Made by a program: the position numbers and the translations under genes | Notes under the pieces: model-generated | What the model saw: only the letters and a program-made list of their open reading frames with translations | Told to the model about the DNA's origin: nothing | Databases searched by the model: none | DNA from: Spartobacteria bacterium | GTDB lineage: Bacteria > Verrucomicrobiota > Verrucomicrobiia > Chthoniobacterales > UBA6821 | DNA: 64,000 nt | Direction of reading: 5' to 3' | Assembly (NCBI GenBank): GCA_947471565.1 | Contig: CANIVT010000010.1 | Location: forward strand, 1 to 64,000 | Shown: in pieces, positions 12,499 through 29,833 of the stretch | How the letters are laid out: each line of letters opens with the position of its first letter | How positions within the stretch are numbered: the first letter of the stretch is position 1

Positions 12499-12507
12499 TG
12501 ATTCCCG

Positions 12508-12771
12508 TCAGGAACGGGAGGTGCCGTGCTGCAGATCCCTATCGGCAGCCAGTTCGCGGCAGGTCTTGACCATCATCCAGACCATGAATCCGATGACGCC
12601 GACCACAACCAGGATCATGAAGAGTGTGTTGTCCGAAAGAGCCATTTTGGCGGTGACGGTCTGCGGCTCGATGACCCCCCCGGAATTTTTGAGGGCGCAA
12701 TCGGGGCAGGCTCCAGCGCTGGCCGCCGCGCCAATCAGGAGGACGGAGGTAAGGGATTTTGGAAGTCTCAT
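12508..12771 (-). CDS. Small exported membrane protein of the oxidase cluster
   Basis: An 87-residue product whose start overlaps the sco stop (ATGA). It has an N-terminal signal-like segment (about 5-20), then A-C-P-D-C-A-L-K-N just after the predicted cleavage region, then a Met-rich transmembrane helix (about 48-69, TLFMILVVVGVIGFMVWMM). The exported CxxC and the Met-rich helix suggest a link with copper or thiol chemistry, but no family is recognised. Confidence 0.6.
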   Translation of the reverse strand: MRLPKSLTSVLLIGAAASAGACPDCALKNSGGVIEPQTVTAKMALSDNTLFMILVVVGVIGFMVWMMVKTCRELAADRDLQHGTSRS

Positions 12772-13445
12772 GGCTTCGGGCTGGTCGGGCTTTGGCTGGT
12801 CTGGCTGGAAGAAACCTTTCCTGTAATAGGTTCCCTGAGGAGGTCTCCGATGTCCATGAAAAGCTTCTGGACCAGTTCCGGTTCGTCGAGATTGCGGGTC
12901 TTACGGATCCGTCCCTCGCGGTCGATCACCAGGAAGCGGGTTGAGTGGGTAGGGACTCCCTTCCCGTCATAGGCGAGCACCTGGAACATCCCCTTACGGG
13001 CAAAGGTGTCGATCTCAGGCTTCGGGCCGGTGAGGAAGATCCATTTGGAGGGATCGGCCATCATCCGTCCGGCATATTCGCCCAGGACGGCAGGGGTGTC
13101 GTGCTCGGGATCCACGGAGATAGAGACCAGGCGGACATCCTTTGCCTTGGCGATCCCCTTCGCGAGTTCGGCCATCCGGGAGGTCATCAGGGGGCAGGGC
13201 CCGTTGCATCGGGTAAAAACGAAGTCGGCCACCCAGACCTTGCCGAGCAGATCCTCCTTGGTCAGCGGCTTTCCCTCCTGTGTCGTGAACCGAAAGGTGG
13301 GTATCTCCCCGATCGGGGGCATCGCGTCGACATCGCGACGCTCGGAGGACTTAAAGAGCCGGGCCGAGCCGAAGATCAGGACACCGGCCACCGCAAAAGC
13401 GATAACCCACGCCGAAAAGGGGAGGCGTTTCGGGGTGTCGGTCAC
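12768..13445 (-). CDS. SCO1/SenC-family copper chaperone
   Basis: From GTG 13445 the product has 225 residues; GAGG lies about 12 nt before this GTG and the coding region would otherwise run back into ctaE. After a membrane anchor (about 11-30) comes a thioredoxin-like domain with the copper-binding motif FTRCNGPCPLM (C-x3-C-P) and the partner histidine in GVPTHSTRFLVIDREG. SCO proteins deliver or reduce copper at the CuA site of oxidase subunit II. It is placed after ctaE and overlaps the next small gene by 4 nt. Confidence 0.92.
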   Translation of the reverse strand: MTDTPKRLPFSAWVIAFAVAGVLIFGSARLFKSSERRDVDAMPPIGEIPTFRFTTQEGKPLTKEDLLGKVWVADFVFTRCNGPCPLMTSRMAELAKGIAKAKDVRLVSISVDPEHDTPAVLGEYAGRMMADPSKWIFLTGPKPEIDTFARKGMFQVLAYDGKGVPTHSTRFLVIDREGRIRKTRNLDEPELVQKLFMDIGDLLREPITGKVSSSQTSQSPTSPKP

Positions 13446-13458
13446 GGAGCCGGCGACC

Positions 13459-14112
13459 TCAGATGAGATACAGGATCGTGTAGAGGAACACCCAGACGAC
13501 GTCGACGAAGTGCCAGTAGAGGCCGACATTCATCAGGGCCACATGGCGCTCCGCAGTGAAGAAGCGCTTGGTCACCTGAAGGTAGAAGCACCAGAGGATC
13601 AGCAGGACGCCGATGCAGACGTGGGCGCCATGGAAGCCGGTCAGGGTAAAGAAGGAGGAGCCGTAGACGCCGCCTTTATTGAACCAGAGTCCCTCGTGGT
13701 AGAGTTCCGTCCACTCGACGCACTGGACGCCGACAAAGGTGGCACCCATGAGCGCGGCCGCGAGCATCCACCCCGCTCCGGACTTGCCCTTTTTCACCGC
13801 CTCTTCGGCGAAATGATAGACAAAGGAACTGGCGACAAGGATGACCGTATTGATGCCGGTCAGGAGCTTGGGCATCGGGGGAAGCTCGATACCGTCGCCG
13901 AGATTCGGGGGCCAGCATCCTGCAGCCTGTCGACAAACCAGATAGGCGGAGATCAGACCGCTGAAAAGCAATGCCTCGGAGCAGAGAAAGACGATCATGC
14001 CGAGCTTGCAGATCTTGGGATCGGTCGGCGGCGCATGATGCGAATCATGCGCATGGCTCTCTTCCTGCGGTGCGTGGAAGAGGGAGGCGTCGTTGAAGGC
14101 GGCGTTACTCAT
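13459..14112 (-). CDS. ctaE: Cytochrome c oxidase subunit III
   Basis: The product has 217 residues and about five transmembrane helices. Family markers include KLGMIVFLCSEALLFSGLI (with the Glu of the bundle), VYGSSFFTLTGFHGAHVCIG and NVGLYWHFVDVVWVFLYTILYL. The N-terminus carries a histidine-rich tail (about 13-28: HAPQEESHAHDSHHAP). Subunit III stabilises subunit I and its proton uptake. The start at 14112 follows the 39-residue gene by 22 nt. Confidence 0.95.
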   Translation of the reverse strand: MSNAAFNDASLFHAPQEESHAHDSHHAPPTDPKICKLGMIVFLCSEALLFSGLISAYLVCRQAAGCWPPNLGDGIELPPMPKLLTGINTVILVASSFVYHFAEEAVKKGKSGAGWMLAAALMGATFVGVQCVEWTELYHEGLWFNKGGVYGSSFFTLTGFHGAHVCIGVLLILWCFYLQVTKRFFTAERHVALMNVGLYWHFVDVVWVFLYTILYLI

Positions 14113-14134
14113 GGTAGGTTTTCGGCGCGGAAAA

Positions 14135-14254: not shown

Positions 14255-14268
14255 GGATTGAGAGTGGC

Positions 14269-15171
14269 CTAGAGTCGGCAAAGCACCAGCGAACCCAGCA
14301 GGAGAGGAAGATAGAGAAGCGACGCGAAAAAGAGTCTCCGGGCCGCCGGGAGACTCCGGGTACGAACCAAATCCCCCGCGAGGAAGAGCATCCCAGCTCC
14401 GAGCGCGAGGGCCGCGAGAAAGTAGAAGGAGGAGGCCATTCCGAAAAGCCCGGGCAGCAGCGAGACGGCCAGTAGTCCGGCCGAATAGATGAGCGACTGC
14501 CAGGCGGTGGCCCATCCCTCCGGATCACGCAGGGTGATCATCTTGAAACCCGCGAGCGCATACTGGTCCTTGTACATCCAGGCGATCGCGAGGAAGTGGG
14601 GCATCTGCCAGAACCAGAGAATCAGGAAGAGAATCCAGCCCCCGATGCTCGCGTGCCCCGTGGCGGCCGTCCAACCCAGCAGGGGAGGCAGCGCACCTGG
14701 AACGGCACCCACCAGTGTGTTGAGTTCGCTCACGCGCTTCATCGGGGTGTAGGCCAGCGCGTAGATCACGATGGTCAGGAAGGACAGGAGGGCCGTGATG
14801 GCGTTGGCCAGCAGCGCAAGCAGGGCCACGCCGCTTCCGCAGCAGAGAAGACCGAAAAGGAGGGCGTCCGAAGGATGCATCCGTCGCGCGGGCAGGGGCC
14901 TGTCGGCCGTGCGCGGCATGAGGGCATCCAGATCGCGCTCGATCCATTGATTCAAAGCGGAGGCTCCGGCAGCGCTCAGGGCCGTCCCGACGAGGGTGGC
15001 CGCCAGCAGGGTCCAATCCATCGGGCCGTGCCATCCGGTCAGAAAGCCGACCAGTGTGGTCAGCAGGACGAGCAATGAAAGCCTGGCCTTCGAAAGCTCG
15101 CCGAGATCACCAAGGAGTCCGCTCCCCTTGGCGACATCCGCTTTCGCGGCAATCGTATCGCTCCCGTTCAT
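14269..15171 (-). CDS. ctaB: Protohaem IX farnesyltransferase (haem O synthase)
   Basis: The product has 300 residues, a UbiA-family membrane prenyltransferase. The first Asp-rich motif is NQWIERDLDALMPRTADRPL (about 88-107) and the second conserved loop is YTPMKRVSELNTLVGAVPGA. It adds a farnesyl group to haem b to make haem O, which CtaA then oxidises to haem A. The start overlaps the ctaA stop by 4 nt, so the two haem enzymes are translationally coupled. Confidence 0.95.
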   Translation of the reverse strand: MNGSDTIAAKADVAKGSGLLGDLGELSKARLSLLVLLTTLVGFLTGWHGPMDWTLLAATLVGTALSAAGASALNQWIERDLDALMPRTADRPLPARRMHPSDALLFGLLCCGSGVALLALLANAITALLSFLTIVIYALAYTPMKRVSELNTLVGAVPGALPPLLGWTAATGHASIGGWILFLILWFWQMPHFLAIAWMYKDQYALAGFKMITLRDPEGWATAWQSLIYSAGLLAVSLLPGLFGMASSFYFLAALALGAGMLFLAGDLVRTRSLPAARRLFFASLLYLPLLLGSLVLCRL

Positions 15172-16178
15172 GCCCTTACCTCCCCAGCACCGTGACCGGC
15201 GCAGAAAAGACGGAACACCAACAGGATGGTGAAGGCGGTCAAGAGAGCTCCGAGAGCCATATGAGAGGTAGCGACATCGGCCGCCTTGTTAAACCAGATG
15301 GTCATGGCCCCCAGCAGGATCTGCAACAGGATCGCCCCGCACCAGAGCAGGCTCCATCCGCGGAGCCAGTGACCGAGAGGCGTCACTTTCACGACACGCG
15401 CAACGAAGGCGATGACGACGAACAACAGGGCGACCGCCCCGAAACGATGCGTCATCTGCAGATAGATCTGCGACGCGGAGACCGGAGCGATCCGGTCCTG
15501 CTGGCGCACCGCATTGATCTTTTCCAAAGCAGCTGGAGAAGTTTCAGGAAAGAGTGTCCCGTAGGCGGTTGGGAAATCGCGGATCGCTAGAGGCGCATGC
15601 TGATGGCGAATCGTGGCGGCGATCCCAAGCTGGAAATAGGTAAGGAGAAGGGCGGCAATCCCTAGTCGGCGGAGTGAGGAAGCAATCTCATCGCCGGTCC
15701 ACCTTCCCGCAAGAAAGCCCCTGCCCGTGACAGACGCAATCACCAGAAGCAGGCCGAAGAAACTCTGGGCCAGCGCCGCGTGGAAGATGCCGATCTGGTC
15801 CTTGTAAAGCGTTACACGGAGACCGCCCAGCACTCCCTGCAGGATGACGAGCAGCACGGCGGTTACTGCCAACCATTTCACCCAGGAGCGCTTTTCCTTC
15901 CAGAAGGTGACCCCGGCGAGGATGAGTGTCAGAAAACCGACGCCCGAAGCGATGAGACGGTGGGAGTGTTCCCAGAAGATTCCGCCCACCCACTTTGAGT
16001 AGGGATAGAGGAACATGTTGTAGCCGTAGGTGGTCGGCCAGTCGGGCACCGACATGCCGACACCTTTCGAGGTCACCAGTCCTCCGACAACAATCAGCAG
16101 AAAGGTAGCAAGTGCCGTGAGCAGGGCAACCCGGTGTACCGGGGCCACGCGTGCGGCTTCCGGGGAAACGTCACCCAT
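15168..16178 (-). CDS. ctaA: Haem A synthase (CtaA/COX15)
   Basis: The product has 336 residues with eight predicted transmembrane helices. Haem-ligand regions are visible: VPDWPTTYG and FWEHSHRLIAS in the N-half; IRHQHAPLA, LQMTHRFGAVALL and ATSHMALGAL in the C-half. It converts haem O to haem A for the aa3 oxidase. It starts 8 nt after ctaD. Confidence 0.95.
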   Translation of the reverse strand: MGDVSPEAARVAPVHRVALLTALATFLLIVVGGLVTSKGVGMSVPDWPTTYGYNMFLYPYSKWVGGIFWEHSHRLIASGVGFLTLILAGVTFWKEKRSWVKWLAVTAVLLVILQGVLGGLRVTLYKDQIGIFHAALAQSFFGLLLVIASVTGRGFLAGRWTGDEIASSLRRLGIAALLLTYFQLGIAATIRHQHAPLAIRDFPTAYGTLFPETSPAALEKINAVRQQDRIAPVSASQIYLQMTHRFGAVALLFVVIAFVARVVKVTPLGHWLRGWSLLWCGAILLQILLGAMTIWFNKAADVATSHMALGALLTAFTILLVFRLFCAGHGAGEVRA

Positions 16179-16186
16179 GGCCCAGC

Positions 16187-17962
16187 CTAGTGGGCCTCCA
16201 GGGTGACGTGCGCGGGGGCTTTCTCGTTCTGCGGGAGGTAATCTTTCTCAAGACCCGGCACGCTGTATTCGTAAGGACCGTGGTGCACGGTGGGTGTCGT
16301 CACAAAGTTACCGTGAGGAATGGGGTGGGAAACAGTCCACTCCAGCGTTGTGGAATTCCATGGATTTGCTGGAGCCTTGGGGCCCTTGAAGATGCTCCAG
16401 AACATGTTGGCCAGAAAGGGAAGTGTGGAGAGACCCAGACCCATGGCTCCAATCGTGCAGACGACGTTGAGCGGTTGGACCTGACGCAGGCAGTCATAGA
16501 CGGTCGGATCGGCGATGCGGCGCATCATGCCGGACAAACCAAGATTGTGCATTGGGAAGAAGGTCAGGTTAAAGAACACGAACGTCATCCAGAAATGGAT
16601 CCAGCCGAGGGTATCGTTGAACATGCGGCCCGACATCTTGGGGAACCAAAAATAAATAGCGGCAAAGACTGAGAAAATACTGCCGCCGAAGAGCACGTAG
16701 TGGAAGTGGGCCACGATGAAGTAGGTATGGTGGACGAAGAGATCGATCGGCGTTGCGGCCATGAAGATCCCGGAGAGTCCGCCGATGACGAACATCGAGA
16801 CGAAGGCGACGGCGAAGGCCATCGGAACCGTGTAATGAATGTTTCCGCGCCAGATCGTGCCCATCCAGTTGAAGGTCTTGATGGCGCTGGGAACCGCGAT
16901 GACCATCGTCGAGACACCAAACGCCGCACTCAGCGTGAGGTTCATGCCGCTGACATACATGTGGTGGCCCCAGACGATAAATCCAAGGACTCCGATCACG
17001 ATCATGGCGTAGACCATCGCCTTGTATCCGAAAACCGGCTTGCGCGAGAAGACCGCAAGGATCTCCGAGGCAAATCCCATGGCTGGCAGGATCAGGATGT
17101 AGACCTCGGGGTGACCAAAGAACCAGAAGAGATGCTGCCAGAGCAGTGGCTGGCCCCCACCCTCGGGCTTGTAGAAGGTCGTTCCGAAGTTCAGATCAAA
17201 GATGATGAGGGCTGCTGCCGCCGAAAGAACGGGGATTGCAAGAATCAGAAGGATCGCTGTCAAAAAGATCGCCCAGACAGGAAGCGGCATGCGGAACATC
17301 GACATGCCGGGGGATCTCATGGTGATGACGGTGGTGATGTAGTTCACCGCACCGGTGAGCGACGAGAGCCCGTTGATAAACAACGAGACACACCAGAGTG
17401 TCTGGCCAATCGGCGTGCCGTTGTACTTGGCAAAGCTGCTCAGGGGGGCGTAGGCCGTCCATCCCGTGCCAGGCGCGCCGCCCGGGACGAAAAGTGAGGC
17501 AAGCATGATGACGCCCGAAATCGAGAAGAGCCAGTAGCTGATCTCGTTGAGGGTGGGGAAGGCCATGTCACCGGCACCGATCTTTAACGGGATGAGGAAG
17601 TTGCCGAAGACACCGATCAGAATCGGCATCGCCACAAAGAACACGAGGAGTGTCCCGTGCATGGTCACGAGCATGTTGTATCCACCAGGGATGAGGGACC
17701 CATCGTCGCTGACGATCGTGGAGGGAAGAAGGTGGCCAATGACAGGGATCGGGTGGCCAGGGAAGGCAAGCTGCCAACGCATGGCAAGTGCCATGGCACC
17801 GCCGATGATGACGTAGAGGATGCTCGTGAAGAGGAACTGCATCGCGATCACCTTGTGATCGGTGTTCCAGAGATAGTGCATGATCCCTTTTTTCCCGTGA
17901 CCATGGCCGTGGTCGCCATGATGGGCGGCTGCGTGGGAATCGGCGGTGATCGTGGCGCTCAT
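16187..17962 (-). CDS. ctaD: Cytochrome c oxidase subunit I (aa3 type, A-family)
   Basis: The product has 591 residues. It contains the low-spin haem ligand region NMLVTMHGTLLVFF, the CuB and Tyr site WFFGHPEVYILILPAMG (Glu of the D-channel and cross-linked Tyr present, so A1-type), GHHMYVSGM, the K-channel lysine in PSAIKTFNW and the haem ligands in HHTYFIVAHFHYVLFGG. The N-terminus is histidine-rich (DSHAAAHHGDHGHGHGKK). It is the catalytic, oxygen-reducing proton pump. It starts 21 nt after ctaC. Confidence 0.97.
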   Translation of the reverse strand: MSATITADSHAAAHHGDHGHGHGKKGIMHYLWNTDHKVIAMQFLFTSILYVIIGGAMALAMRWQLAFPGHPIPVIGHLLPSTIVSDDGSLIPGGYNMLVTMHGTLLVFFVAMPILIGVFGNFLIPLKIGAGDMAFPTLNEISYWLFSISGVIMLASLFVPGGAPGTGWTAYAPLSSFAKYNGTPIGQTLWCVSLFINGLSSLTGAVNYITTVITMRSPGMSMFRMPLPVWAIFLTAILLILAIPVLSAAAALIIFDLNFGTTFYKPEGGGQPLLWQHLFWFFGHPEVYILILPAMGFASEILAVFSRKPVFGYKAMVYAMIVIGVLGFIVWGHHMYVSGMNLTLSAAFGVSTMVIAVPSAIKTFNWMGTIWRGNIHYTVPMAFAVAFVSMFVIGGLSGIFMAATPIDLFVHHTYFIVAHFHYVLFGGSIFSVFAAIYFWFPKMSGRMFNDTLGWIHFWMTFVFFNLTFFPMHNLGLSGMMRRIADPTVYDCLRQVQPLNVVCTIGAMGLGLSTLPFLANMFWSIFKGPKAPANPWNSTTLEWTVSHPIPHGNFVTTPTVHHGPYEYSVPGLEKDYLPQNEKAPAHVTLEAH

Positions 17963-17983: not shown

Positions 17984-18874
17984 TTAGGGTTGGGTCAAGG
18001 TGGCGACGGGCACGGAAGAAGCAGGGGTGGCGGCATTCTTTTCCTGACGGGGCTTGAGCCACTTCTGGAACTCCTCCTCAGTCACCACCCGGACCGGAGC
18101 CTTCATGTTGTAGTGGCCGGTGCCGCAAAGCTGGTTGCAGGCGATCTGGAAGTTTCCGGTGCGGGTTGCCTGGAACCAGACCCAACCGATTGTGCGCCCC
18201 GGAACGCAATCCTGATACATGCGAAACTCAGGGACGTAGAAGGAGTGGATCACATCCCGGGCGTGCAGGAGCAGATGAACCGGGCGTCCGACCGGAATGA
18301 CCAATTCTGTTGCCTGGACATCCTGTGAAGTCAGCGGATTGTCAGGATCTGTGCCCCAGTGATTGGTGTCGGAGATTTTCTTGATATCAATGGGCGCAAG
18401 CTTGCCACTGATCCCCGGATAACGCATTTCCCATCCGAACTGATAGCTGGAGACATCGATCACCAAAGAGTTTGAGGGAGCAGGCCGATGAATCTCCTCC
18501 CAGAGTCGATTTCCATAAATAGCGAGCGCAAGGAAGACAATCGTAGGTGCCGTCGTCCAGATGATCTCGAGCTTGTTACTTCCGTGGCTGTAGAAGGCCT
18601 TGTGACCTGGGCGCTTCCGGTAGGCGATCAGAAAATAAATGTACGTTCCCTGCGTCAGCACGAAGACCACCGCCGTCAGCCAAAAGATGATCATGAAGAG
18701 CGCGTCGATCTTCTCGCCGTGGACGGTGACACAAGGTGCAAGACCCCAGATGTTTCCCGCACGCTGCTCCGCAAAAGCGGGTGCCGCCGCGAAAAGGGCG
18801 CAGGCCGCGCCGATCCATCCGGCGAGCCGACGGCCCGGTATACTGGTGTTGCGAATAAAAAAGCGGGTCGTCAT
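17984..18874 (-). CDS. ctaC: Cytochrome c oxidase subunit II (CuA)
   Basis: From ATG 18874 the product has 296 residues. It has a signal peptide ending APAFA, two transmembrane helices and a periplasmic cupredoxin domain. CuA ligands are the His in VIHSFYVPEFR and the C-N-Q-L-C-G-T-G-H-Y-N-M cluster. There is no fused cytochrome c domain, so this is aa3 rather than caa3; the separate c-type cytochromes upstream may supply electrons. The start at 18907 is less likely because it would overlap the upstream gene. Confidence 0.95.
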   Translation of the reverse strand: MTTRFFIRNTSIPGRRLAGWIGAACALFAAAPAFAEQRAGNIWGLAPCVTVHGEKIDALFMIIFWLTAVVFVLTQGTYIYFLIAYRKRPGHKAFYSHGSNKLEIIWTTAPTIVFLALAIYGNRLWEEIHRPAPSNSLVIDVSSYQFGWEMRYPGISGKLAPIDIKKISDTNHWGTDPDNPLTSQDVQATELVIPVGRPVHLLLHARDVIHSFYVPEFRMYQDCVPGRTIGWVWFQATRTGNFQIACNQLCGTGHYNMKAPVRVVTEEEFQKWLKPRQEKNAATPASSVPVATLTQP

Positions 18875-18881
18875 GGTGTGA

Positions 18882-19511
18882 TCACTTTTTGGGTGCTGCC
18901 TTGTCACCGGAAGCGGGGGGCATCGCCATCAACTGGGACTGGGTCCAGGGATCGGACTGATCCTTGTGCTCGCTACGGATGCCGGCCACGAAAGCAGGGT
19001 CGATCGCCGGGGCATTATTGCCCCAGTCGCTGCGAATGTAGGTGAGGACGGCAGCAATCTGGTCGTCGCTGAGTTGCTTCCATTGCGGCATGGCATTGTT
19101 GTAGGCCCCGCCCATGACATTCATCGGACCCTGGTGGCCGTGGAGCATCAGGAGGACAAGATGGTTCTCGCCGTGCTTGGCACTGCCGTTGACCCATTCG
19201 CTGCCGGCAAGCGGCGGAAACTGCCCGGCGACACCCTGACCGCTGGCCTGGTGACAGACGACGCAGTTCTGCGAGTAGAGACGCTTACCCACGACCTTGG
19301 GATCCACGGGGGCGGCCGCCTGCGTTCCGCCACCCGCCCAGTTCACCGCGTTGCTCTCATAGACATCGCTGCGGAAACCGCCGCTATTGAAGGAAAGATA
19401 GAGTCCTCCGAGGAACAGGGAGAGCATGAAGCCCCCCACGATCCAAGGGGAAAGCGGAGCGGAGGACGCTTGTCCGTCCCCGCCTTCATTCTGGTGATGG
19501 TCGTGATGCAC
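18882..19511 (-). CDS. Membrane-anchored monohaem cytochrome c (CcoP-like position)
   Basis: The product has 209 residues and uses a GTG start at 19511, with AGGA about 10 nt upstream. The N-terminus is histidine-rich (HHDHHQN), then comes one transmembrane helix (about 23-41) and a class I cytochrome c domain with haem motif C-V-V-C-H (about 83-87) and a likely distal Met in NNAMPQWKQLSDDQIAAVLTYIR. It sits where ccoP would be after the CcoN- and CcoO-like genes, but has one haem instead of two. It probably carries electrons to CuA of the neighbouring aa3 oxidase (inference). Confidence 0.85.
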   Translation of the reverse strand: MHHDHHQNEGGDGQASSAPLSPWIVGGFMLSLFLGGLYLSFNSGGFRSDVYESNAVNWAGGGTQAAAPVDPKVVGKRLYSQNCVVCHQASGQGVAGQFPPLAGSEWVNGSAKHGENHLVLLMLHGHQGPMNVMGGAYNNAMPQWKQLSDDQIAAVLTYIRSDWGNNAPAIDPAFVAGIRSEHKDQSDPWTQSQLMAMPPASGDKAAPKK

Positions 19512-20167: not shown

Positions 20168-21595
20168 TTATTTCTTGGGAAAGAGCCGTTTGGCCGCCAC
20201 GGCACGGGTGAAATTGGATGCAACGATTACCGCGGCAGCCACCAGGAGTAACCGGGCAGCAGCTTCCAGCACATGAAAAGGCTGCGAATAGGAGGTGATG
20301 TTGAGGAAGGAAACAACCGGGTCAAGCAGGGCAAGGCCGGCGAAAAGCCCGTCGAGAATGAGGATCACCGTGAGAAAGCAGAGACCGGAGAAGGTCAGCC
20401 AGTAGTGGAGACCAGAGAGCGAAGTGCTCCAGCACTCCCGACCGAGTAGGGCGGGAAGGGAGAGGTAGATCACGCCGAAGAGAGGGAAAGAGACCGCTCC
20501 AAAAAGCCAGAGCAGATCAACGGAGGCAGTGACCCATGTGAAACGAGCAAAAGCGCTGATGCCTGGAAGTGCCGTGAGAGCCTCAAGAACCCCGGCTGCC
20601 AGGACAAAGGAAAGACCCGCACTCAGGAACTGCCACGCGATGTTTTCTTTCTCTCCACGTCTGCGAAGCCCAGAGAGATTCATCATCACGATCAGGATCG
20701 GGATGAGCAAAAGGACACCGGCCACCACTCCAGCGGAGGTCATCCATGCGGGAATCGGCCCACCGATCAGACGGGCCAGTCCGGCCCATCCACCGAAGAG
20801 GAGCAGGAGCCAGAAGCCGAGCGGCGCAAGATTTTGGCGGTTCAAATGCCGTCCGCTGAGGCGCGGCAGGAGACCGTAGAGACAGCCAAAGGCAATCGGC
20901 AGAAGCCAGAGAATGACGAAGCCATTGCAGAACCAACCCTGAACAGCTCCCTGGGCGGAAGCCTGGAGGGGCTTCCAGGTGAGGAGCAGGTTCGCCGTGC
21001 CGTAAACCCAAGGGAAGCAGCAGAAGCCGGCCACCAGATACCAGAGGGCGGGTTCGGCGCGGCCTCCCGACTCGATGCCGGCACGACGATCGAAGAGGCA
21101 GACCACCCAGATGCCGATCATCAGGAAGGAAAGGAAGAGCATCGCCGAGGCCCAGTTCGGGTACTCGAGCCACTCCACCCCGGTGGAGTATCCCGCGAGG
21201 ATGGCAAGCGTGCCGAGCAGGACGGAAAGATTCCAGAGAACGACCGCTGAGTTGATCAGCGTGCGCAGCAGCACTCCGCCAAGCGTGCGGTGACAGAAGC
21301 GGGCCATGAGCCAGATCCCTGCTGCAATCGCCGCCTGGGATGCCCAACCGTAGAGGAAGAGATCGCGAGCCATGGCCGAGAGGCGACCATAACCAAGGAA
21401 TGAAACATTCCCGAGGAAACCGGGAGCAACCAGCTTGATCGAGGCGATCAGGGCCAGCACGGAAGCGATCAGCAGCCAGTGCAGGGCGTTTCCGAAGAGC
21501 AGGAGAACGGGTGTGCGGACGGAGGCGTCGATGCAGGACGCCTTGGCACCCTCGGACTCCGGATCGTGGTGGTGGAAATAGGTCGTGTTGCTCAT
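20168..21595 (-). CDS. CcoN-like membrane protein lacking all haem/copper ligands
   Basis: The product has 475 residues and about 12 transmembrane helices; the start overlaps the upstream stop (ATGA). The helix order resembles CcoN (cbb3 subunit I), but each ligand region is altered. The CcoN G-R-L-R-P-L-H-T-S site reads YGRLSAMARD, the W-W-Y-G-H-N copper site reads GWFCNG, the G-P-H-H-L-H loop reads AGLARLIGGPIPAW, and the G-H-V-H-S-G haem site reads TWVTASVDLLW. The remaining histidines lie at the N-terminus (8-10) or in other places (such as NALHW and LHYWLTF). It cannot bind the usual cofactors, so it is presumed structural. Homology to CcoN is my reading and should be tested. Confidence 0.7.
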   Translation of the reverse strand: MSNTTYFHHHDPESEGAKASCIDASVRTPVLLLFGNALHWLLIASVLALIASIKLVAPGFLGNVSFLGYGRLSAMARDLFLYGWASQAAIAAGIWLMARFCHRTLGGVLLRTLINSAVVLWNLSVLLGTLAILAGYSTGVEWLEYPNWASAMLFLSFLMIGIWVVCLFDRRAGIESGGRAEPALWYLVAGFCCFPWVYGTANLLLTWKPLQASAQGAVQGWFCNGFVILWLLPIAFGCLYGLLPRLSGRHLNRQNLAPLGFWLLLLFGGWAGLARLIGGPIPAWMTSAGVVAGVLLLIPILIVMMNLSGLRRRGEKENIAWQFLSAGLSFVLAAGVLEALTALPGISAFARFTWVTASVDLLWLFGAVSFPLFGVIYLSLPALLGRECWSTSLSGLHYWLTFSGLCFLTVILILDGLFAGLALLDPVVSFLNITSYSQPFHVLEAAARLLLVAAAVIVASNFTRAVAAKRLFPKK

Positions 21596-21939
21596 TGCTG
21601 GTTCTGGGAGGGGACTCCCTTGGCGGCCCGTGCGTTCAACTCGGGCAGCACGAGTTCCATCGCACGGGTGACGGGGATCCGGACGATCCCCTTGGCCTTG
21701 TCGTTCCACCCGTAGGTGGTGAGGGCAGTTTGGTCGGCGGCACGGAGATCGGCGAGATTCTTCGTCCGGACCGCGGCACGCTCCTGATCCTCGCGGTCCG
21801 TTGCGGATCCGGAATGCGAAATCCAGAAGGCTCCAGCCAGAGCGGCCAGCAAGAGCACCAGCACGGAGAGAATCGTCAGAAAACCCGGACCGCGGTAGGT
21901 GCGGGCGACCGCGTCATGATCGTGGTGATGCTGTGTCAT
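21592..21939 (-). CDS. Small membrane protein between actF and the CcoN-like gene
   Basis: The product has 115 residues with a His-rich start (MTQHHHDHD), one transmembrane helix (about 20-41) and a soluble, probably periplasmic tail with TTYGWNDKAKGIVRIPVTRA. The start overlaps the actF stop and the stop overlaps the CcoN-like start, so it is translated with them. Proteins of this shape often follow actF in this kind of operon; a role in joining complex III to the oxidase is plausible but inferred. Confidence 0.6.
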   Translation of the reverse strand: MTQHHHDHDAVARTYRGPGFLTILSVLVLLLAALAGAFWISHSGSATDREDQERAAVRTKNLADLRAADQTALTTYGWNDKAKGIVRIPVTRAMELVLPELNARAAKGVPSQNQQ

Positions 21940-23135
21940 CAGTCGTTGAAGTTGACGGCCTCCGCAAGGCGCGGATCACGGGAAGGCCAGAGGGGCGAAT
22001 CGCCGAGCCCCTTCAGGAAGAAGGCACCAAGGGTGCTGCCGATCGCCAGAAGGGCGACGACATCGAGAACGGCGGGCTGGAATCCCTCAGGATGCAGCAC
22101 GGGAAGGACCAGCATGTAGACATCGAGCAGATGCATTGTGAGAATCCAGAAAGCCACCACCCCGAGGAAACGGGCATTGGCCTTAGGCCCGCGGAAGAGA
22201 AGCAGGCAGAACGGGATAATGAAATGACCGACGACGAGCAGGATCCCGAGCACCTTCCAAGAGCCTGTGGAGCGCAGAACATAGAACGAGGTCTCCTCGG
22301 GAATATTCGCATACCAGATCAGCATGTACTGCACGAAGGCGATCCAGCCCCAGAAGAGGGTGAAGGCGAGCAGCAGCTTGCCGAAGGCGAAGTTGTGCTG
22401 GGCAGTAAGCACCCTCTTGAGGTATCCGGCGGAACGGAGCGCGTTGGCCAGCAGGATGATCACACAGAGGGCGGCGAGCACCGCACCGGCGAAGTTGTAG
22501 ATCCCGAAGATGGTCGAGACGAAGCGGATGTTGAGACCCATCATCCAGTCAAACGACCAGAAGGTCAGCGCGATCGCCCCGAACGGGATAATGAAGAAGG
22601 CAATCCGACGGTTGCGGATCGAATGGATCGCAGCGCCATCCTGGTCCTGGGCCAGCGAGTTGCGGCGGAACAGCAGGGCCACAATGCCGAAGAGCAGGAA
22701 GTAAACAGCCGTACGGATCCAGAAAAAGTCGACGTTCAGGTAGGCTGCTTTCTCGGCCAACTCGTGGTTGTGGGTGGGCGACTCCGCCATCCAGGTCCAG
22801 ACCTTAGGCGCGACGAAGAGGAGCGGAAGAAGCAGAAGGGCCAGCAGGGGGAGTTGGCAGGAAATATTCTCGAGTTGGCGGCGGATACCGACGCTCCAGG
22901 CCGCGTCGGTCGCGTGATGCACGATCACCCAGAAGAGTGACCCGATCAGGATCGTCACAAAGAACCATCCGGCGAAGAGCCACGAGAAGGCAAACTGCTG
23001 GGGATTGCCGATCCCAAGCACGAGGGAAATAAGTAGCGTGACGATGGCGGTGACGCAGAGGCCGATGAAGCGTCCTCCGACATGCTTGTAGTCGAAGGTC
23101 TCCGCGGGAGGAAGATGGGTGGTCTCGTCGCTCAT
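21939..23135 (-). CDS. actF: Alternative complex III subunit ActF (quinol-binding membrane subunit)
   Basis: The product has 398 residues and about ten transmembrane helices. It resembles ActC and PsrC/NrfD, with stretches such as FVTILIGSLFWVIVHHATDAAWSV and FGWIAFVQYMLIWYANIPEE typical of ActF. It forms the second quinol-side membrane subunit of the quinol:cytochrome c oxidoreductase. It overlaps actE by 4 nt (ATGA). Confidence 0.93.
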   Translation of the reverse strand: MSDETTHLPPAETFDYKHVGGRFIGLCVTAIVTLLISLVLGIGNPQQFAFSWLFAGWFFVTILIGSLFWVIVHHATDAAWSVGIRRQLENISCQLPLLALLLLPLLFVAPKVWTWMAESPTHNHELAEKAAYLNVDFFWIRTAVYFLLFGIVALLFRRNSLAQDQDGAAIHSIRNRRIAFFIIPFGAIALTFWSFDWMMGLNIRFVSTIFGIYNFAGAVLAALCVIILLANALRSAGYLKRVLTAQHNFAFGKLLLAFTLFWGWIAFVQYMLIWYANIPEETSFYVLRSTGSWKVLGILLVVGHFIIPFCLLLFRGPKANARFLGVVAFWILTMHLLDVYMLVLPVLHPEGFQPAVLDVVALLAIGSTLGAFFLKGLGDSPLWPSRDPRLAEAVNFND

Positions 23136-23863
23136 GGCTTGGAGGGGGCCGGAGTGGTAACCGGGGCGTTGGTTGGCTGGAACGAGGCACGCTCGGCATC
23201 GGGAACGTCGTTAAGGGTCGCGTTCTGCGAACGCTGGAGAGCGCGGACGTAGGCCACGATCGCCCAACGGTCGGGAACCTGGATCACTCCGCCGTAGCCA
23301 AGCATGGTGTTCTTCCCATTGGCGACGGTGTTGTAGATCTCGCCGTCGGTCATATCACGCAGGCGCTGTTGCTGGAGATTGGCGACACCGACGAGACCAT
23401 ACTTGGTAGCGATACCGTTACCGGTTCCGGTCGATCCGTGACAGACGGCACACTGGATCTCGTAACGGTCATGTCCCCTCTCGAGGGTCTCCTTGGTGAC
23501 GGGGAAGGGAATGCCCGTGCCCCAGTTCGTTCCGACCTTGCCGGTGTCAGCATAGCCCTCACTGCCGGAGAAGATCACCGCGTTGTAAGCCCCACCCATG
23601 ACCGAGTCCGAACCGTCGGCGGAGGACATCTTGCTGGATGAGGGGGCCGCGTATCCTAGGGGAACGGTGCCGACTACGGGCTGGCGGTTGCCACGGCCGT
23701 CAGCGAAGAAGTCGCTCGGGACCTGGGACTTGACTTTGTCCTGACGGACCATGTCGGGGAAGATTTCGATGGGGGGGCGCTTGGTCTTGCAGCCGCGCAG
23801 TCCCGCGATCGAAACGATCAGGACGACCAGCAGGGTCAGAATGATGGAGAAATAGCGGACCAT
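23132..23863 (-). CDS. actE: Alternative complex III subunit ActE (monohaem cytochrome c)
   Basis: The product has 243 residues. The hydrophobic N-terminus ends in LRGC, a probable lipobox. The ActE-typical linker with S-D-F-F-A-D-G-R-G-N-R-Q-P-V-V-G-T-V follows, then a cytochrome c domain with Q-C-A-V-C-H-G and a likely Met ligand region after it. It passes electrons from the complex to the oxidase. It starts 4 nt after actD. Confidence 0.93.
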   Translation of the reverse strand: MVRYFSIILTLLVVLIVSIAGLRGCKTKRPPIEIFPDMVRQDKVKSQVPSDFFADGRGNRQPVVGTVPLGYAAPSSSKMSSADGSDSVMGGAYNAVIFSGSEGYADTGKVGTNWGTGIPFPVTKETLERGHDRYEIQCAVCHGSTGTGNGIATKYGLVGVANLQQQRLRDMTDGEIYNTVANGKNTMLGYGGVIQVPDRWAIVAYVRALQRSQNATLNDVPDAERASFQPTNAPVTTPAPSKP

Positions 23864-23867
23864 GGCG

Positions 23868-24455
23868 TTATTCGTCGTCGGATGGCTCCAGATGGATCGC
23901 GGTGATGTCGCCGGCGCCGGAGGTCTCCAGGAGTTCGGTCACTTTTTCCAAGGTGAAATTGGGATCGCGTGCGGAGACGGCGAGGAAGAATCCGCGCGAC
24001 GCATCCTTGGCAAAGAGGTCCCACGCGAGCATTGGGTGATTGAGGCGGGGCATCCCGCCCAGCAGGATCATTCCCTTCACGGCGGCCAGTGCTCCAAGCA
24101 TCAGGGTCAGAGCCACAGTGATCGGAACATACTGAGGAAGACCGGAGAAATTGACCGGCTTACCCCCCACGACCAGCGGATAGATCAGACTGCTCGGGAC
24201 AAGCTGCATCGTCAGGGCCAGAGCGATCGCGGTGACGGCCCCTCCGAGGACGAGGAAACTGATAAGAGACTTCGGGGCCTTGAGTTCCTCGGCGAGCCCG
24301 TGGATAGGATACGGGGTGTAGCAGTCGACGGCATTGTAGCCGGCGGCGCGGATGCTGCGGACGGCAGCGATCAGCGCGTCGGGCGTGTCGAAGCGCGCCC
24401 CCACGGCGTGGAGCGGTTCGGCAAGAGATCCTGCGACGGGAAGGTGACGGCTCAT
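23868..24455 (-). CDS. actD: Alternative complex III subunit ActD (DUF3341)
   Basis: The product has 195 residues. The family opening AVGARFDTPDALIAAVRSIRAAGY and D-C-Y-T-P-Y-P-I-H-G-L are present, followed by two transmembrane helices (about 60-82 and 97-125) and a C-terminal soluble lobe. This is the standard DUF3341 layout of ActD, a small structural subunit. It lies one base after the actC stop. Confidence 0.93.
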   Translation of the reverse strand: MSRHLPVAGSLAEPLHAVGARFDTPDALIAAVRSIRAAGYNAVDCYTPYPIHGLAEELKAPKSLISFLVLGGAVTAIALALTMQLVPSSLIYPLVVGGKPVNFSGLPQYVPITVALTLMLGALAAVKGMILLGGMPRLNHPMLAWDLFAKDASRGFFLAVSARDPNFTLEKVTELLETSGAGDITAIHLEPSDDE

Positions 24456-24456: not shown

Positions 24457-25860
24457 TCAGTGTCCCTCCCCGTGTTGCGGCTGCGTCCCAGGAAGCACGG
24501 CCTTGAGTTCGTTCATGCTCATGATCGGAACGAAGCGGATGAAGAGCAGGAACAGCGTGAAGAAGATCCCGAGTGTGCCGGTGGCCGTCAGGATATCGAC
24601 GATGGAAGGGTGGAAATTGCCCCAGGCGGAGGGGAGGAAGTCGTGCAGGAGCGAGGTCGTCACGATCATGAAACGCTCAAACCACATGCCGACGTTGCAA
24701 AGGATCGCGAGAACGAAGACGAGCGGCAGGCAGGTCCGGACGCGCTTGAACCAGAAAAGCTGGGGGATGGTCAGGTTGATCGAGAGGCAGGTGATCGCGT
24801 ACCAGGCAGCGGTGCCGTGGAAGCGCTCCCAGAAGGCGCCCCGTTCGAAGGCGTTGCCGCTGTACCAAGCGCAGAAGAGCTCGTAGACGTACACGTAGCC
24901 CACGCAGGAAGCCATCATGAGCAGGAGCATCGCCACCTTCTCAAGCTGGGCCGGGGTGATGAGATCCTTGAGCTGCGGATACAGGGCGCGGAGCGGAATG
25001 AGGAGCGTCAGCACAGTGGCGCAGCCGCTGTAGACTGCACCGACCATGAAGTAGAAGGGGAAGATCGTGGCGTGCCAGCCGGGAATCACGGAAGTGGCGC
25101 AGTCACTGGCCACGATCGTCGTGACGGTGACGACGAGGACCGAGGTGAGGCCTGCCAGCACGACATACATCGACTCGTAGTGACGCCACTGGCGGGCGGT
25201 GCCAAGCCATCCAAGCGAGGCAACGCCGTAGCAGAACTTGCGGATCTTCGTCGTGGCCCGGTCGCGGAGCACCGCAAGGTCGGGAATCATTCCTGCAAAC
25301 CAGAAGAGAGAGGAAACCGTCAGGTAGCTGGTGACGGCAAAAACGTCCCAGAGCAGCGGGCTCGAGAAGTTGGGCCACATCCCGTAGTTGTTGGGCACGG
25401 GGAAAAGGAACCAAACAAACCAGACTCTGCCGATGTGGATTGCCGGGTAAACGCCTGCGCAGACGATCGCGAACACGGTCATCGCCTCGGCGGCACGGGA
25501 GACCGAGAGGCTCCATCTCTGGCGGGTCAGGAAGAGAACCGCCGAGATGAAGGAACCGGCATGGGCCATGGAAACCCAGAAGATGAAGTTGGTGATGTCC
25601 CAGGCCCAGAACGCGGGGCTGTTCGATCCCCAGACGCCGACACCCGTGATGATCATGTAAAGAATGCAGGCTCCGCCGATGGCGGCGAAGGTTCCTGAGA
25701 TCGAGATCGCGGCATACCACCAGAGAGGGGTCTTGCCCTCGACGATGGAGCAGACCGCGTCGGTCACCCAGAGCGGACCGCGGTTGTTGAGCACCTGCGG
25801 CGGACGGGCAATGGCGCTCAGGTCTGGCGTCACGGTCTCGTTGGAGGTGGAGGCGGACAT
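24457..25860 (-). CDS. actC: Alternative complex III subunit ActC (NrfD/PsrC-like)
   Basis: From ATG 25860 the product has 467 residues, with about ten transmembrane helices of the NrfD/PsrC fold: WDITNFIFWVSMAHAGSFISAV, FPVPNNYGMWPNFSSPLLWD and VVASDCATSVIPGWHATIFP are typical ActC stretches. It forms the quinol-binding membrane core with ActF. A longer frame to 26376 exists but its N-terminal part is a shadow of actB; 25860 lies 7 nt after the actB stop. Confidence 0.95.
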   Translation of the reverse strand: MSASTSNETVTPDLSAIARPPQVLNNRGPLWVTDAVCSIVEGKTPLWWYAAISISGTFAAIGGACILYMIITGVGVWGSNSPAFWAWDITNFIFWVSMAHAGSFISAVLFLTRQRWSLSVSRAAEAMTVFAIVCAGVYPAIHIGRVWFVWFLFPVPNNYGMWPNFSSPLLWDVFAVTSYLTVSSLFWFAGMIPDLAVLRDRATTKIRKFCYGVASLGWLGTARQWRHYESMYVVLAGLTSVLVVTVTTIVASDCATSVIPGWHATIFPFYFMVGAVYSGCATVLTLLIPLRALYPQLKDLITPAQLEKVAMLLLMMASCVGYVYVYELFCAWYSGNAFERGAFWERFHGTAAWYAITCLSINLTIPQLFWFKRVRTCLPLVFVLAILCNVGMWFERFMIVTTSLLHDFLPSAWGNFHPSIVDILTATGTLGIFFTLFLLFIRFVPIMSMNELKAVLPGTQPQHGEGH

Positions 25861-25867: not shown

Positions 25868-28800
25868 TCAGGCGTGCTCGCCGCGGTTGGCGGCGCCGAC
25901 GAGCGAGGCTCCCGGCATCGCGGGGTTGGGATTGCGGACGCGGGCCATGTAGGAGACGCGCGGGCGGGTGTTGAGATAAGCGAGGGAGGAGTACGTGCGC
26001 GGGTCGGCCTTGGCCTTGGAGACGCGGCTCTTGGGGTCGTTGATATTCCCGAAGACAATCGACTCCGAGGGGCAGGCCTGCTGGCAGGCGGTCTTGAACG
26101 CGGGGAGCAGGGTCTTCTCCACGTCGCTGGCACCGGCGGCAACGGAACGTCCGATCTTGGCCTCCTCGATGCGCTGGATGCAGAAGGTGCACTTCTCCAT
26201 AACGCCGCGCATGCGAACCGTGACGTTGGGGTTCTTGGACATCTTGAGGCTGTCGGCCATGCCCTTGTGGGCGAGCGGGCCGAAGTAGAGCTCGTCGAGC
26301 GGGCGCTCGTTGTAGTCGAACCAGTTGAAGCGGCGCACCTTCCAGGGGCAGTTGTTGGCGCAGTACCGGGTGCCAATGCAGCGGTTGTAGGCCATCAGGT
26401 TGAGGCCCTCCTCGCTGTGGACGGTCGCGTTGGCCGGGCAGACGGCCTCACACGGGGCGATCTCGCACTGCTGGCACATCACCGCCATCGGGATCATCTC
26501 GAGGTTTTCCTCTTTGTGATCGGCGCTGGCGAACCAGCGGTCAATGCGGATCCAGGCCATGTCGCGGCCCTTGAGCACCTGGCTCTTGCCGACGACGGGG
26601 ACGTTGTTCTCCGAGCGGCAGGCGACGAGGCAGGCGTTGCAGCCGATGCAGGAATTCAGATCGATCGACATGCCCCACTGGAGGCCCTGATCGTAGGAAG
26701 GGGTCGGGTAGAGTGACTTGGGCGGAGTGAGTTCGCCGTCCATCTCGGCGGCGAAACCGGGCTCCTCCTTGAACTGCTCCAGCGTCCCCTCGCGGGCGAT
26801 GTTGCGCCCCTCCATGTTCTCGTGCTCCTGGGTGCGGGCGAAGACATAGTAGTCCTTGGGCAGGCGCTCGACCTTCACGCCGGAGCGGAAGCAGAGAGCC
26901 GAGGAATCGCGGAGCGGGTAGGCGTCGAAGCCGACCTTCTCCATGACATGGGAAAGACCTTTGCGGCCGTAGCCGAGGGCAATGCTGAGCGACTTGTCGG
27001 CATGACCAGGAGCGATCAGCGCGGCGGCCTCGAGGGAGCTGCCCCCGGCAGTCAGCTTGAGCCATCCACCATCCTCGATGCCGAGGGCCTTGGCGTCGGC
27101 GGGGCTGACAAGGACGGCGTTGTCCCAGACGAGTTTGGTGACGAAATCAGGAGTCTCCTGGAGCCAGGAGTTGTTCGCGTAGCGGCCGTCATCGACCGAG
27201 GAACTGCGCAGGAAGACTGCCTCGAAGCCATCATTGGCCACGGAACCGGACTGCACGGCGGACACGGCGGCGGTCTGATTGAGGGAGGGGGTCGCTGCAG
27301 GGAAGGCGCTGCCGGCGGCAAAGCCGTTCTTCAGGAAGGTGTTCCAGGCGGCATCGGAGGGGTCCTTGGAATACGAGGCGAAGGTGGCGCGCACGGCGGA
27401 GGGGCCGTCGACTTTTTCACCGGCAAGCGCGGCAAGGATCTCGATCGTCGAGAGACCGTTCCAGAGCGGAAGGATCATCGGTTGCACGGCGCAGACCGTA
27501 CCATCCAGGGAACGGGCATCACCCCAGCTCTCGAGATAATGGGCGGCGGGCACCTGCCAGTGGGTCACCTTGGAGGTCTCGTCGGTAAAGAGAGAGAGAT
27601 GAAGCGTCTCGGGAACGCGTGCCAGCAGGTTCGGGAAATCAAGATCAACGGGGGCCGTGTGGACAGGATTCCCACCGAGGATGAGCAGGGTCTGGACGGC
27701 ACCTGCCTTCATCGCGGCCGAGAGGTCGGCAAGGGAGGCGATCGTCTTGGCGGAGGTCTGCCGGGCAGTGACCGTCGCGCCGAGATTTCCGAGGGCAGCA
27801 TTGATGCCGAATGCCAGCGCCTGTACCGAGACAGGGAGGCCGGAGCCGGCGATCACGATCCCCTTCCCCTTGGCGGCGATCAGATCATCAGCCACTCCAT
27901 TGATCCAAGCCGGATCGAAAGAAACAGTGCCGGTTTTGGCGGTAGCAACGAGGGCCTTCAGATTCGCGTCGCCTGTCTTGGCGGCAACGGCCTTGGCCAC
28001 GGCGGCGGCGAAGTCGCCGAGTTCGCTGGCGCGGGCACGGATGCGGTGATCCGCCATGCCACCGGTGATCGAGAAATGATTCTCCGCGACGTAGAGGCGG
28101 TTCATCGATTCTTTATTCATCGATGCATTAGGATCGCGGCGCTTGGCGAAACCGTTGGCAAAGCCGAATCCGGCATCGGCGGGATTGAGGAAGTCGCTGC
28201 CGATCGAGAGGATCACGTCGGCCTTGTTAAAATCATAGGCGGGACGAACACCGGCACCCAGGAGGGTGTCGAAGGCGGCGTCATTCGGGGCGATCGCCTC
28301 GTCCTGCACCCAAAGGATCTTGGGGAACTGCTGGGTCAGGGCGGTACGGAAACGCTCGACGGTCGGGGAATGCTCCCTGCCGACGAGGATCGCGAGTCCC
28401 TCGCCGCCGTTGGCTCCCGCCGTGGCGCGGATCTTGGCGAGCAGGTTGTCGAGGTCGCCGCGGCCGACCTTCAGGGAATCGTGCGTGATCTCGCGGGGAC
28501 GCTGGGGATCGTAGAGATTGAGGACGGAGGCCTGGGCAAAGGCGTCGGTCGAGCCGTTGCTGAGCGGGTGGAGGGGATTGCCCTCGATCTTGGTCGGGCG
28601 ACCGTCGGAGGTGGTGACGATGACCGGGATGGCGCCCGTGGGGGTCGGCATCGCGCTCGCGTAGTAGAGGAACTTGCCGGGGACGGTCCATTCGGCCGAC
28701 TTCGCAAAGGGAACGAGATGAGCCTCGGGGCGCCGGCATCCCGTGAGTCCCACGCCGGTCAGTGCGGTGGCGGCACCCATGAGGCGCACGAAGTCACGGC

Positions 28801-28951
28801 GGGAGAGACCATCCTGGTCACGGCCCGCGGCGGCATCCGAGAACTCACGTCCAAGCCCCTCGGTGAAGGAAGCGGAACCCTCGCGCTCCTCCAGCGAACG
28901 CCAGAGGGTCGGATTGGACTCGCGGGGTGGATGGGGAAAAATCTTCTTCAT
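25868..28951 (-). CDS. actB: Alternative complex III subunit ActB (iron-sulphur protein)
   Basis: The product has 1027 residues. The N-terminus has a twin-arginine motif (SRRDFVRLMG, about 50-59) followed by a hydrophobic stretch ending LTGC. Residues about 75-750 are the molybdopterin-oxidoreductase-like domain that in ActB carries no molybdenum. The C-terminal ferredoxin part has CIGCNACLVAC (about 768), CQQCEIAPCEAVCP (about 827), CIGTRYCANNCPW (about 857), KCTFC (about 919) and CQQACP (about 959), enough for four clusters. It relays electrons from quinol to the c-type haems. It overlaps actA by 4 nt. Confidence 0.96.
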   Translation of the reverse strand: MKKIFPHPPRESNPTLWRSLEEREGSASFTEGLGREFSDAAAGRDQDGLSRRDFVRLMGAATALTGVGLTGCRRPEAHLVPFAKSAEWTVPGKFLYYASAMPTPTGAIPVIVTTSDGRPTKIEGNPLHPLSNGSTDAFAQASVLNLYDPQRPREITHDSLKVGRGDLDNLLAKIRATAGANGGEGLAILVGREHSPTVERFRTALTQQFPKILWVQDEAIAPNDAAFDTLLGAGVRPAYDFNKADVILSIGSDFLNPADAGFGFANGFAKRRDPNASMNKESMNRLYVAENHFSITGGMADHRIRARASELGDFAAAVAKAVAAKTGDANLKALVATAKTGTVSFDPAWINGVADDLIAAKGKGIVIAGSGLPVSVQALAFGINAALGNLGATVTARQTSAKTIASLADLSAAMKAGAVQTLLILGGNPVHTAPVDLDFPNLLARVPETLHLSLFTDETSKVTHWQVPAAHYLESWGDARSLDGTVCAVQPMILPLWNGLSTIEILAALAGEKVDGPSAVRATFASYSKDPSDAAWNTFLKNGFAAGSAFPAATPSLNQTAAVSAVQSGSVANDGFEAVFLRSSSVDDGRYANNSWLQETPDFVTKLVWDNAVLVSPADAKALGIEDGGWLKLTAGGSSLEAAALIAPGHADKSLSIALGYGRKGLSHVMEKVGFDAYPLRDSSALCFRSGVKVERLPKDYYVFARTQEHENMEGRNIAREGTLEQFKEEPGFAAEMDGELTPPKSLYPTPSYDQGLQWGMSIDLNSCIGCNACLVACRSENNVPVVGKSQVLKGRDMAWIRIDRWFASADHKEENLEMIPMAVMCQQCEIAPCEAVCPANATVHSEEGLNLMAYNRCIGTRYCANNCPWKVRRFNWFDYNERPLDELYFGPLAHKGMADSLKMSKNPNVTVRMRGVMEKCTFCIQRIEEAKIGRSVAAGASDVEKTLLPAFKTACQQACPSESIVFGNINDPKSRVSKAKADPRTYSSLAYLNTRPRVSYMARVRNPNPAMPGASLVGAANRGEHA

Positions 28952-29607
28952 CGGTGGCAGCCTCCGCAGTTGACGGGCGGGTTGATCTTCCAGTCCGCCT
29001 TGAACTTCAGCCCCATCTCACGCTGCTCCGTGTCGGAGGCGGGATGCCAGTCCATGTTGAAGACCTCGGAGGGAGGGCGGAGGAAATTCTCGGGGGAGCG
29101 GTGGCAGTCGAGGCACCACTTCATACTGAGCGACTGGGCCTCGTAGACCTGCGCCATCTCGTTGATCTTGCCGTGGCAGCTGTAGCAGCTGACGCCGCGG
29201 TTCACATGGACGGCGTGGTTGAAGTAGGCGTAGTCAGGCAGGCGGTGAATCTGCACCCATGGGATCGGCTGGCCGGTCTTCCAGCTCTCACGGACGGGGG
29301 CTAGGCGCGGGCTGTTGCCGAGGATCTTGCCCTCACCATGGCAGTTGATGCAGGTCTGGGTGTTGGGGAGATTGGAGTGGCCGGCAACCTCGACGAAGCT
29401 ATGGCAGTAGCGGCAGTCCATTCCGAGTTGCTTCACGTGAAGCGCGTGGGAGAAGGGAACCGGCTGGTCGGGCTGGTAGCCCACGCGGGTGTACTTGGGG
29501 GTGAAGTAGTACCAGATCCCGAGAGTCACGGGCGCCCCTGCGAGGAGGACGCAGACAAGCAACTGGAGCGGTACCCAGTTGGCCCATCGGGGAAAGAAAT
29601 TCGACAT
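28948..29607 (-). CDS. actA: Alternative complex III subunit ActA (pentahaem cytochrome c)
   Basis: From ATG 29607 the product has 219 residues with an N-terminal membrane anchor (about 10-30). Five CxxCH motifs are visible in order: CRYCH, CINCH, CYSCH, CLDCH and CGGCH, the last at the C-terminus. This is the usual ActA haem count. It is the first gene of the 20 kb respiratory operon; its promoter should lie in the 226 bp divergent region 29608-29833. The longer frame upstream is non-coding repeat sequence. Confidence 0.95.
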   Translation of the reverse strand: MSNFFPRWANWVPLQLLVCVLLAGAPVTLGIWYYFTPKYTRVGYQPDQPVPFSHALHVKQLGMDCRYCHSFVEVAGHSNLPNTQTCINCHGEGKILGNSPRLAPVRESWKTGQPIPWVQIHRLPDYAYFNHAVHVNRGVSCYSCHGKINEMAQVYEAQSLSMKWCLDCHRSPENFLRPPSEVFNMDWHPASDTEQREMGLKFKADWKINPPVNCGGCHR

Positions 29608-29833
29608 CGGGAGTGGTGAAGACGCCCGGATGGAGGAATTCGCAGGCCCGAACAGAGTAGAAAGATGGCCGCCGAAGGCAAGATTTTTGCCGTGGAAATT
29701 CAAAGGAAGACAGAAATGTCGCGCGGAGACGCAGAGGCGCGGAGAGAGGGATGCGGGTGATTCCCTTTTTCGATGGTTTTCTATTTTATCCTGCGGGATA
29801 GGTTCCAAGATCATCAGCCACTCACCCAGTCCG

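Follow-up and report, generated by a model that had tools for sequence, protein, structure and literature searches.

The operon analysed here encodes alternative complex III (ACIII) together with a homologue of CcoN, subunit I of the cbb3 oxidases, in which no ligand for haem or copper is left, and it raises the question of what such a protein is kept for. The window, by which we mean the whole stretch of 64,000 nucleotides that was analysed, belongs to a genus of Chthoniobacterales ("Spartobacteria") represented mainly by freshwater metagenomes.

Operon and cofactor sites of the CcoN-like protein

The genes run in the order actABCDEF, small membrane protein, ccoN, ccoO, monohaem cytochrome c, ctaC, ctaD and oxidase accessory genes (Table 1). 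The initial annotation had described the ccoN-ccoO-ccoP order inside an ACIII-aa3 operon; in the window the CcoO-like gene and the monohaem cytochrome c do come after ccoN, with actABCDEF and ctaCD on either side. The ACIII cluster shows the actABCDEF order, a pentahaem ActA and a monohaem ActE, the subunit names being taken from order and motifs. The adjoining CcoO-like gene matches the FixO profile (3.9e-20), and the aa3 oxidase genes match TIGR02891 (CtaD, 1.3e-192, slightly below the cut-off) and TIGR02866 (CtaC, 4.4e-45, above the cut-off). The 475 codons of ccoN start inside the upstream gene for the small membrane protein, after which ligand-complete relatives have a ccoS gene and the window has none. 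Because the two genes overlap by 4 bases, no gene lies between them and there is no room for ccoS; a whole-genome Pfam search of the window genome (2.28 Mb, 97% complete) yielded no FixS match. This genome holds only two COX1-family genes, the ccoN and the ctaD of the window, and a bd oxidase gene is located outside the window (G000:C1:276431-277861). Towards the end of the operon that carries the oxidase genes, positions 11546-12136 of the minus strand encode a protein conserved in relatives (loci L030 and L058), the Cys/His-rich tail of which (CCGG repeats, HGHDTDHNH, CGCAH) looks metal-binding.

Table 1. Genes of the ACIII-ccoN-aa3 operon in the window, in operon order
Product	Position	Strand	Basis and remarks
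ActA, pentahaem cytochrome c	28948..29814	-	five CXXCH; true start probably later
ActB, iron-sulphur subunit	25868..28951	-	gene order
ActC	24457..25860	-	gene order; start 25860 chosen (listed ORF longer)
ActD	23868..24455	-	gene order
ActE, monohaem cytochrome c	23132..23863	-	CAVCH motif, gene order
ActF (alternative complex III)	21939..23135	-	position and conservation; name from gene order, no Pfam match
Small single-helix membrane protein, 115 aa	21592..21939	-	gene order; conserved between actF and ccoN
CcoN-like subunit without haem or copper ligands, 475 aa	20168..21595	-	profiles, alignment, model
CcoO-like membrane-anchored monohaem cytochrome c, ~212 aa	19525..20163	-	CIACH and GSIMP kept; length from ATG at 20163 (listed ORF starts 20223)
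Monohaem cytochrome c, CcoP position	18882..19511	-	CVVCH, MPQW
CtaC, aa3 oxidase subunit II without fused cytochrome c domain	17984..18907	-	profile
CtaD, aa3 oxidase subunit I, ligand motifs intact	16187..17962	-	profile and motifs
CtaA-like haem A synthase	15168..16178	-	sequence reading, conserved in relatives
CtaB-like haem O synthase	14269..15171	-	sequence reading, conserved in relatives
CtaE-like oxidase subunit III	13459..14112	-	sequence reading, conserved in relatives
Sco-like copper protein	12768..13529	-	sequence reading, conserved in relatives; start uncertain

The CcoN-like protein matches Pfam COX1 (PF00115) over residues 30-447 (4e-31) and the ccoN profile TIGR00780 at 7.7e-19, with a score of 67.9 bits that falls far below the equivalog cut-off of 583.15. 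It aligns over its full length with Pseudomonas stutzeri CcoN (3mk7_A; phmmer, 2.1e-10). An AlphaFold (AF2) model built from 44 homologues has a pLDDT of 92 and a pTM of 0.92, and CcoN chains take all the top places among its structural matches, with a TM-score of 0.87 to 3mk7 and a superposition on that structure of 441 residues at 1.9 Å (Z 48.6). Nitric oxide reductases (Z 44.5 and 42.0) and aa3-type oxidases (about 36) rank lower; a NorB-like enzyme was rejected on these scores, and the histidines that would hold haem and metal in such an enzyme are equally missing. The protein is thus confirmed as a member of the haem-copper oxidase subunit I family that is closest to the cbb3 type. It is a true CcoN homologue, as had been proposed from the sequence, and the model bears out the fold that the initial annotation had assumed. 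It resembles cbb3 CcoN (TIGR00780; PDB 3mk7, 8smr) in fold, length and its slot before a CcoO-like gene, at 20-21% identity over the whole chain, but has neither the ligands of haem b, haem b3 and CuB nor the cross-linked tyrosine and ccoS of the cbb3 system. Members of the family were found in 51 of 58 relatives.

In the family alignment, every ligand position is replaced (CcoN numbering followed by that of the window protein): both ligands of low-spin haem b (H60 to A76, H349 to L361), the three CuB ligands (H207 to N224, H257 to A274, H258 to R275), the haem b3 ligand (H347 to V359) and the active-site tyrosine (Y251 to G268). The roles of these positions are those which we take to be established by cbb3 structures. 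Three alignments (phmmer and two from MAFFT) agree that no histidine occupies a ligand site in any register, so a misalignment hiding histidines was rejected. A chance or sequencing artefact was also dismissed, the loss being common to other genomes of the genus and to many families with different replacements. The initial annotation was right that all ligand motifs had been lost, whereas two of its pairings shift: GPHHLH aligns with GLARLI and not ARLIGGP, and GHVHSG with SVDLLW (ASVD.. in the phmmer alignment) and not VTASVD. With all six histidines and the tyrosine gone, and hence no redox centre left, the window protein is predicted to be unable to reduce oxygen, as first suggested, or to carry electrons. 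The suggestion that it might serve as an electron-transfer bridge fails for this reason; the wire must run through the haems of CcoO and cytochrome c, whose CXXCH motifs are always kept.

Ligand states in the slot after actF

Ligands were tabulated for loci drawn from both the order and the class. Across 75 loci, six histidines are present in 28, five in one, and two or fewer in 46, so that intermediates are rare. Three states share the slot after actF: ligand-complete, with all six histidines and the tyrosine; haem-b pair only; and none or one to two scattered ligands. A single fixed form is thus not what the operons contain. In one genome that is 99% complete (G058), the ligand-complete version is the sole oxygen reductase detected in searches for COX1 and bd oxidases; because no other haem-copper or bd oxidase was found there, this version very probably functions as an oxidase. 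The haem-b-pair-only state comprises 22 sequences, mainly from soil genomes of family f9, whose ligand columns read H-N-Q-R-Y-H. H60 and H349 occur together in 22/23 sequences of this type, and all CuB and b3 ligands are lost, so that it may represent a one-haem stage on the way from oxidase to scaffold. Loci of this kind include L041, L049, L056, L061, L105, L106, L110 and L118, among others in f9 (mainly soil AV* genomes). The window represents the state with no ligands, in which replacements vary by clade and even between genus-mates (N-A-R-V-L in the window, G-D-R-K-Q in others).

Near-intact genes were also seen: L088 differs only by Y251C and H257S, and L047/L122 only by H207R, the latter with a weak ccoS match. 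These are possible early stages of loss. Away from ACIII, many genomes of the phylum encode proteins of about 730-860 aa in which CcoN and CcoO are fused and every ligand is present (L062-L067, L192, L193, L195-L197).

The state of the ligands is mirrored in neighboring genes. CcoS is required for the maturation of cbb3 cofactors. A ccoS/FixS gene lies directly upstream of ccoN in 28/28 ligand-complete loci and in only 1/47 others, the sole exception being a weak match at a locus with 5/6 histidines. Whole-genome Pfam FixS searches gave matches only beside ligand-complete ccoN, although the curated profile misses some such loci. When phylogeny was taken into account on a tree of ActB and ActC, 10 of 11 independent pairs agreed with the pairing of ccoS and ligands and none opposed it (p=0.002); on the CcoN tree, 2 of only 3 pairs agreed, which is not significant (p=0.5). 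The tyrosine of the CcoO motif CxYCH follows the same trend, being present in 27/27 proteins that accompany a ligand-complete CcoN, 12/12 that accompany the haem-b-only form and 6/33 that accompany the ligand-free form. The CXXCH haem c motifs of CcoO and cytochrome c are kept in every intact locus. As ccoN ligands, ccoS and the CcoO tyrosine change together, the loss of haem b has left its mark on three genes, whereas the haem c wire persists.

Selection and the history of ligand loss

Pairwise dN/dS values of ligand-deficient ccoN genes lie between 0.05 and 0.19, the range of their ccoO and cytochrome c neighbors, and the value for the window gene and its closest relative is 0.083; all were obtained by simple counting, with some dS near saturation. 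Given these values, intact reading frames and the absence of a stop from every copy, a pseudogene was rejected. Thirty positions are ≥90% conserved among the CcoN proteins without ligands, and W, G, P and N positions are still invariant. With its fold kept, its catalytic residues lost and purifying selection acting on it, the protein is a pseudoenzyme. Long branches in the CcoN tree show that CcoN has evolved more rapidly where ligands are missing than where they are complete, and the fold of the ligand-deficient form may therefore be only partly constrained.

The ActB and ActC tree, which is independent of ccoN, requires 13 changes in ligand completeness by parsimony, or 15 losses if loss is assumed to be irreversible, even with weak branches collapsed. 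A ccoN tree built with the ligand columns removed requires about 4 changes and places the fast ligand-deficient lineages together, a clustering that may reflect long-branch attraction or transfer. Descent from a single ancient ligand-less paralogue was rejected, since the tree holding the ligand-deficient genes together as one origin fails the AU test (p=0.005), with long branches in play. Because the two trees give 15 and about 4 events and a single origin is rejected, we claim that ligand loss was independent at least a few times, and more often if the ActB and ActC tree is the right guide. We lean slightly towards a history in which a working cbb3-like reductase borne by the ACIII operon became a cofactor-free adaptor several independent times, the six ligands and ccoS being lost together and the cytochrome c wire kept throughout; one clade would have passed through a single-haem-b stage.

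Probable role beside ACIII

We favor, with a probability of about 0.6, the reading that the window protein is a dead C-type subunit I kept as a membrane scaffold of ACIII that anchors cytochrome c subunits. The ancestor would have been the subunit I of a C-type (cbb3-like) oxygen reductase encoded in the ACIII operon of the class Verrucomicrobiae. Its dead descendant would no longer bind haem b, haem b3 or CuB, while its multi-helix body would anchor the CcoO-like subunit and the soluble-domain cytochrome c beside ACIII. The haems c of these two subunits would be the wire by which electrons leave ACIII for an oxidase, which in the window is the aa3 enzyme encoded next. Electrons would then pass from ActA/ActE to CcoO, to cytochrome c and to the CuA of CtaC, the next carrier in the window, where no cytochrome c domain is fused to CtaC. 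A scaffold is the simplest account because the fold, the slot adjacent to actF and two haem c partners are kept and no redox centre remains. The actABCDEF-CcoN-CcoO-cytochrome c unit is constant across the order and the class, from which physical membership of CcoN in the ACIII assembly is inferred.

The main alternative is that the dead CcoN is an adaptor specific to an ACIII-aa3 supercomplex, binding aa3 directly and joining it to ACIII. Where the sequence extends far enough downstream, aa3 genes adjoin the unit in 21/37 ligand-deficient and 5/23 ligand-complete loci; the location of aa3 directly downstream in the window and the lack of a cytochrome c domain in the CtaC encoded there also speak for this idea. 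However, the aa3 genes are not adjacent in 16/37 of the ligand-deficient loci, and the dead form occurs without them in genomes across the class (L172-L174, L176-L181) as well as in L036 and L041. In addition, the ACIII-aa3 contact of Flavobacterium johnsoniae is made by oxidase subunit III, with no CcoN (PMC8361435). We therefore assign the scaffold role primarily to ACIII and put the link to aa3 second, regard a link specifically to aa3 as partly supported and consider the dedicated aa3 adaptor unlikely. Of the initial annotation's proposal, a place in the constant unit is borne out, but neither a general bridge to aa3 nor the constant co-occurrence with adjacent ctaCDE that it had suggested checking is. 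In one further locus (L040, genome G027), ctaC follows the ACIII-ccoN unit and ctaD lies on another contig, so that the aa3 genes are split.

A new function with new chemistry, such as the conduction of protons or ions, the binding of quinol or of a metal at a new site, appears improbable: in some clades the former pocket holds charged residues that are conserved (for example D/E-R plus K in several of the window's relatives), but no common new site is visible, and the replacements differ among clades and even within the genus of the window. Decay of a gene whose catalysis is redundant would fit the faster evolution of the dead forms, the near-intact cases (L047 with H207 to R; L088 with Y251 to C and H257 to S) and the presence of another haem-copper oxidase in sufficiently complete ligand-deficient genomes. 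A gene on its way out would hardly show the dN/dS values, stop-free frames and invariant W, G, P and N positions described above, or remain intact across whole families, and we judge decay very improbable. We give almost no credence to a protein that is still redox active through a haem held by unrecognized ligands. A single low-spin haem b is plausible in the f9 clade, with its H60, H349 and CcoO CxYCH, but the window protein lacks both histidines, and its one order-wide conserved histidine, His397, also occurs in ligand-complete forms, where it is not a haem ligand.

The scaffold reading can be set against systems already described. Rhodobacter capsulatus lacking CcoS makes an assembled but inactive cbb3 oxidase (PMC5742617), so that cofactor-poor CcoN complexes can be stable; that strain is a laboratory mutant with its ligands intact, whereas the lineage of the window naturally lacks the ligands as well as ccoS. 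The ACIII-aa3 and ACIII-caa3 supercomplexes of F. johnsoniae and Rhodothermus marinus share the arrangement of actABCDEF followed by an A-type oxidase and transfer electrons without a soluble carrier, but no CcoN or CcoO is described in them, the contacts being made by oxidase subunit III or by ActE and subunit IIc (PMC8552683, PMC5928083). An ACIII-linked C-type oxidase is known in verrucomicrobial methanotrophs and Opitutaceae, according to PMC8498564 (citing Refojo 2010) and PMC11102522, and that of the methanotrophs has been invoked for high oxygen affinity (PMC6688271). It occupies the same slot beside actABCDEF, and these papers regard it as a functional oxidase of high affinity. In contrast, three genomes with pmoA-type genes (G097, G109 and G126; genus g32, Verrucomicrobiae), taken to be verrucomicrobial methanotrophs, encode a ligand-deficient ACIII-linked CcoN with the residues S-E-S-H-F-V (L183, L184 and L190). 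A TIGR00780 search of G097 and G126 gave no match near the cut-off that would indicate a canonical cbb3 CcoN, and the remaining COX1 protein of the searched pmoA genomes (465-476 aa) is NorB-like by its HLWVE motif, read in G097. At L190, an insertion of about 7 kb (about 10720-17644) separates actF from the gene for the small membrane protein; in Methylacidiphilum caldifontis, a nos gene cluster is reported inside the ACIII genes (PMC11102522).

The operon module itself is thus already known, and it is the ligand-deficient state that we have not seen described; no report of ligand loss in ACIII-linked CcoN was found in the literature covered, which consists mostly of papers outside subscription. 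Annotation pipelines would label the dead ccoN genes oxidases. The claim about the oxygen affinity of the methanotroph "cbb3" (PMC6688271) is affected, in that the CcoN at this locus of the three g32 genomes lacks the residues for O2 reduction. The active sister form in the same slot of related bacteria offers a natural experiment on the non-catalytic role of CcoN and also bears on the electron hand-over from ACIII, which is unsettled. If the proposed reading is true, a whole terminal oxidase core would repeatedly have come to serve as a structural component of a respiratory complex.
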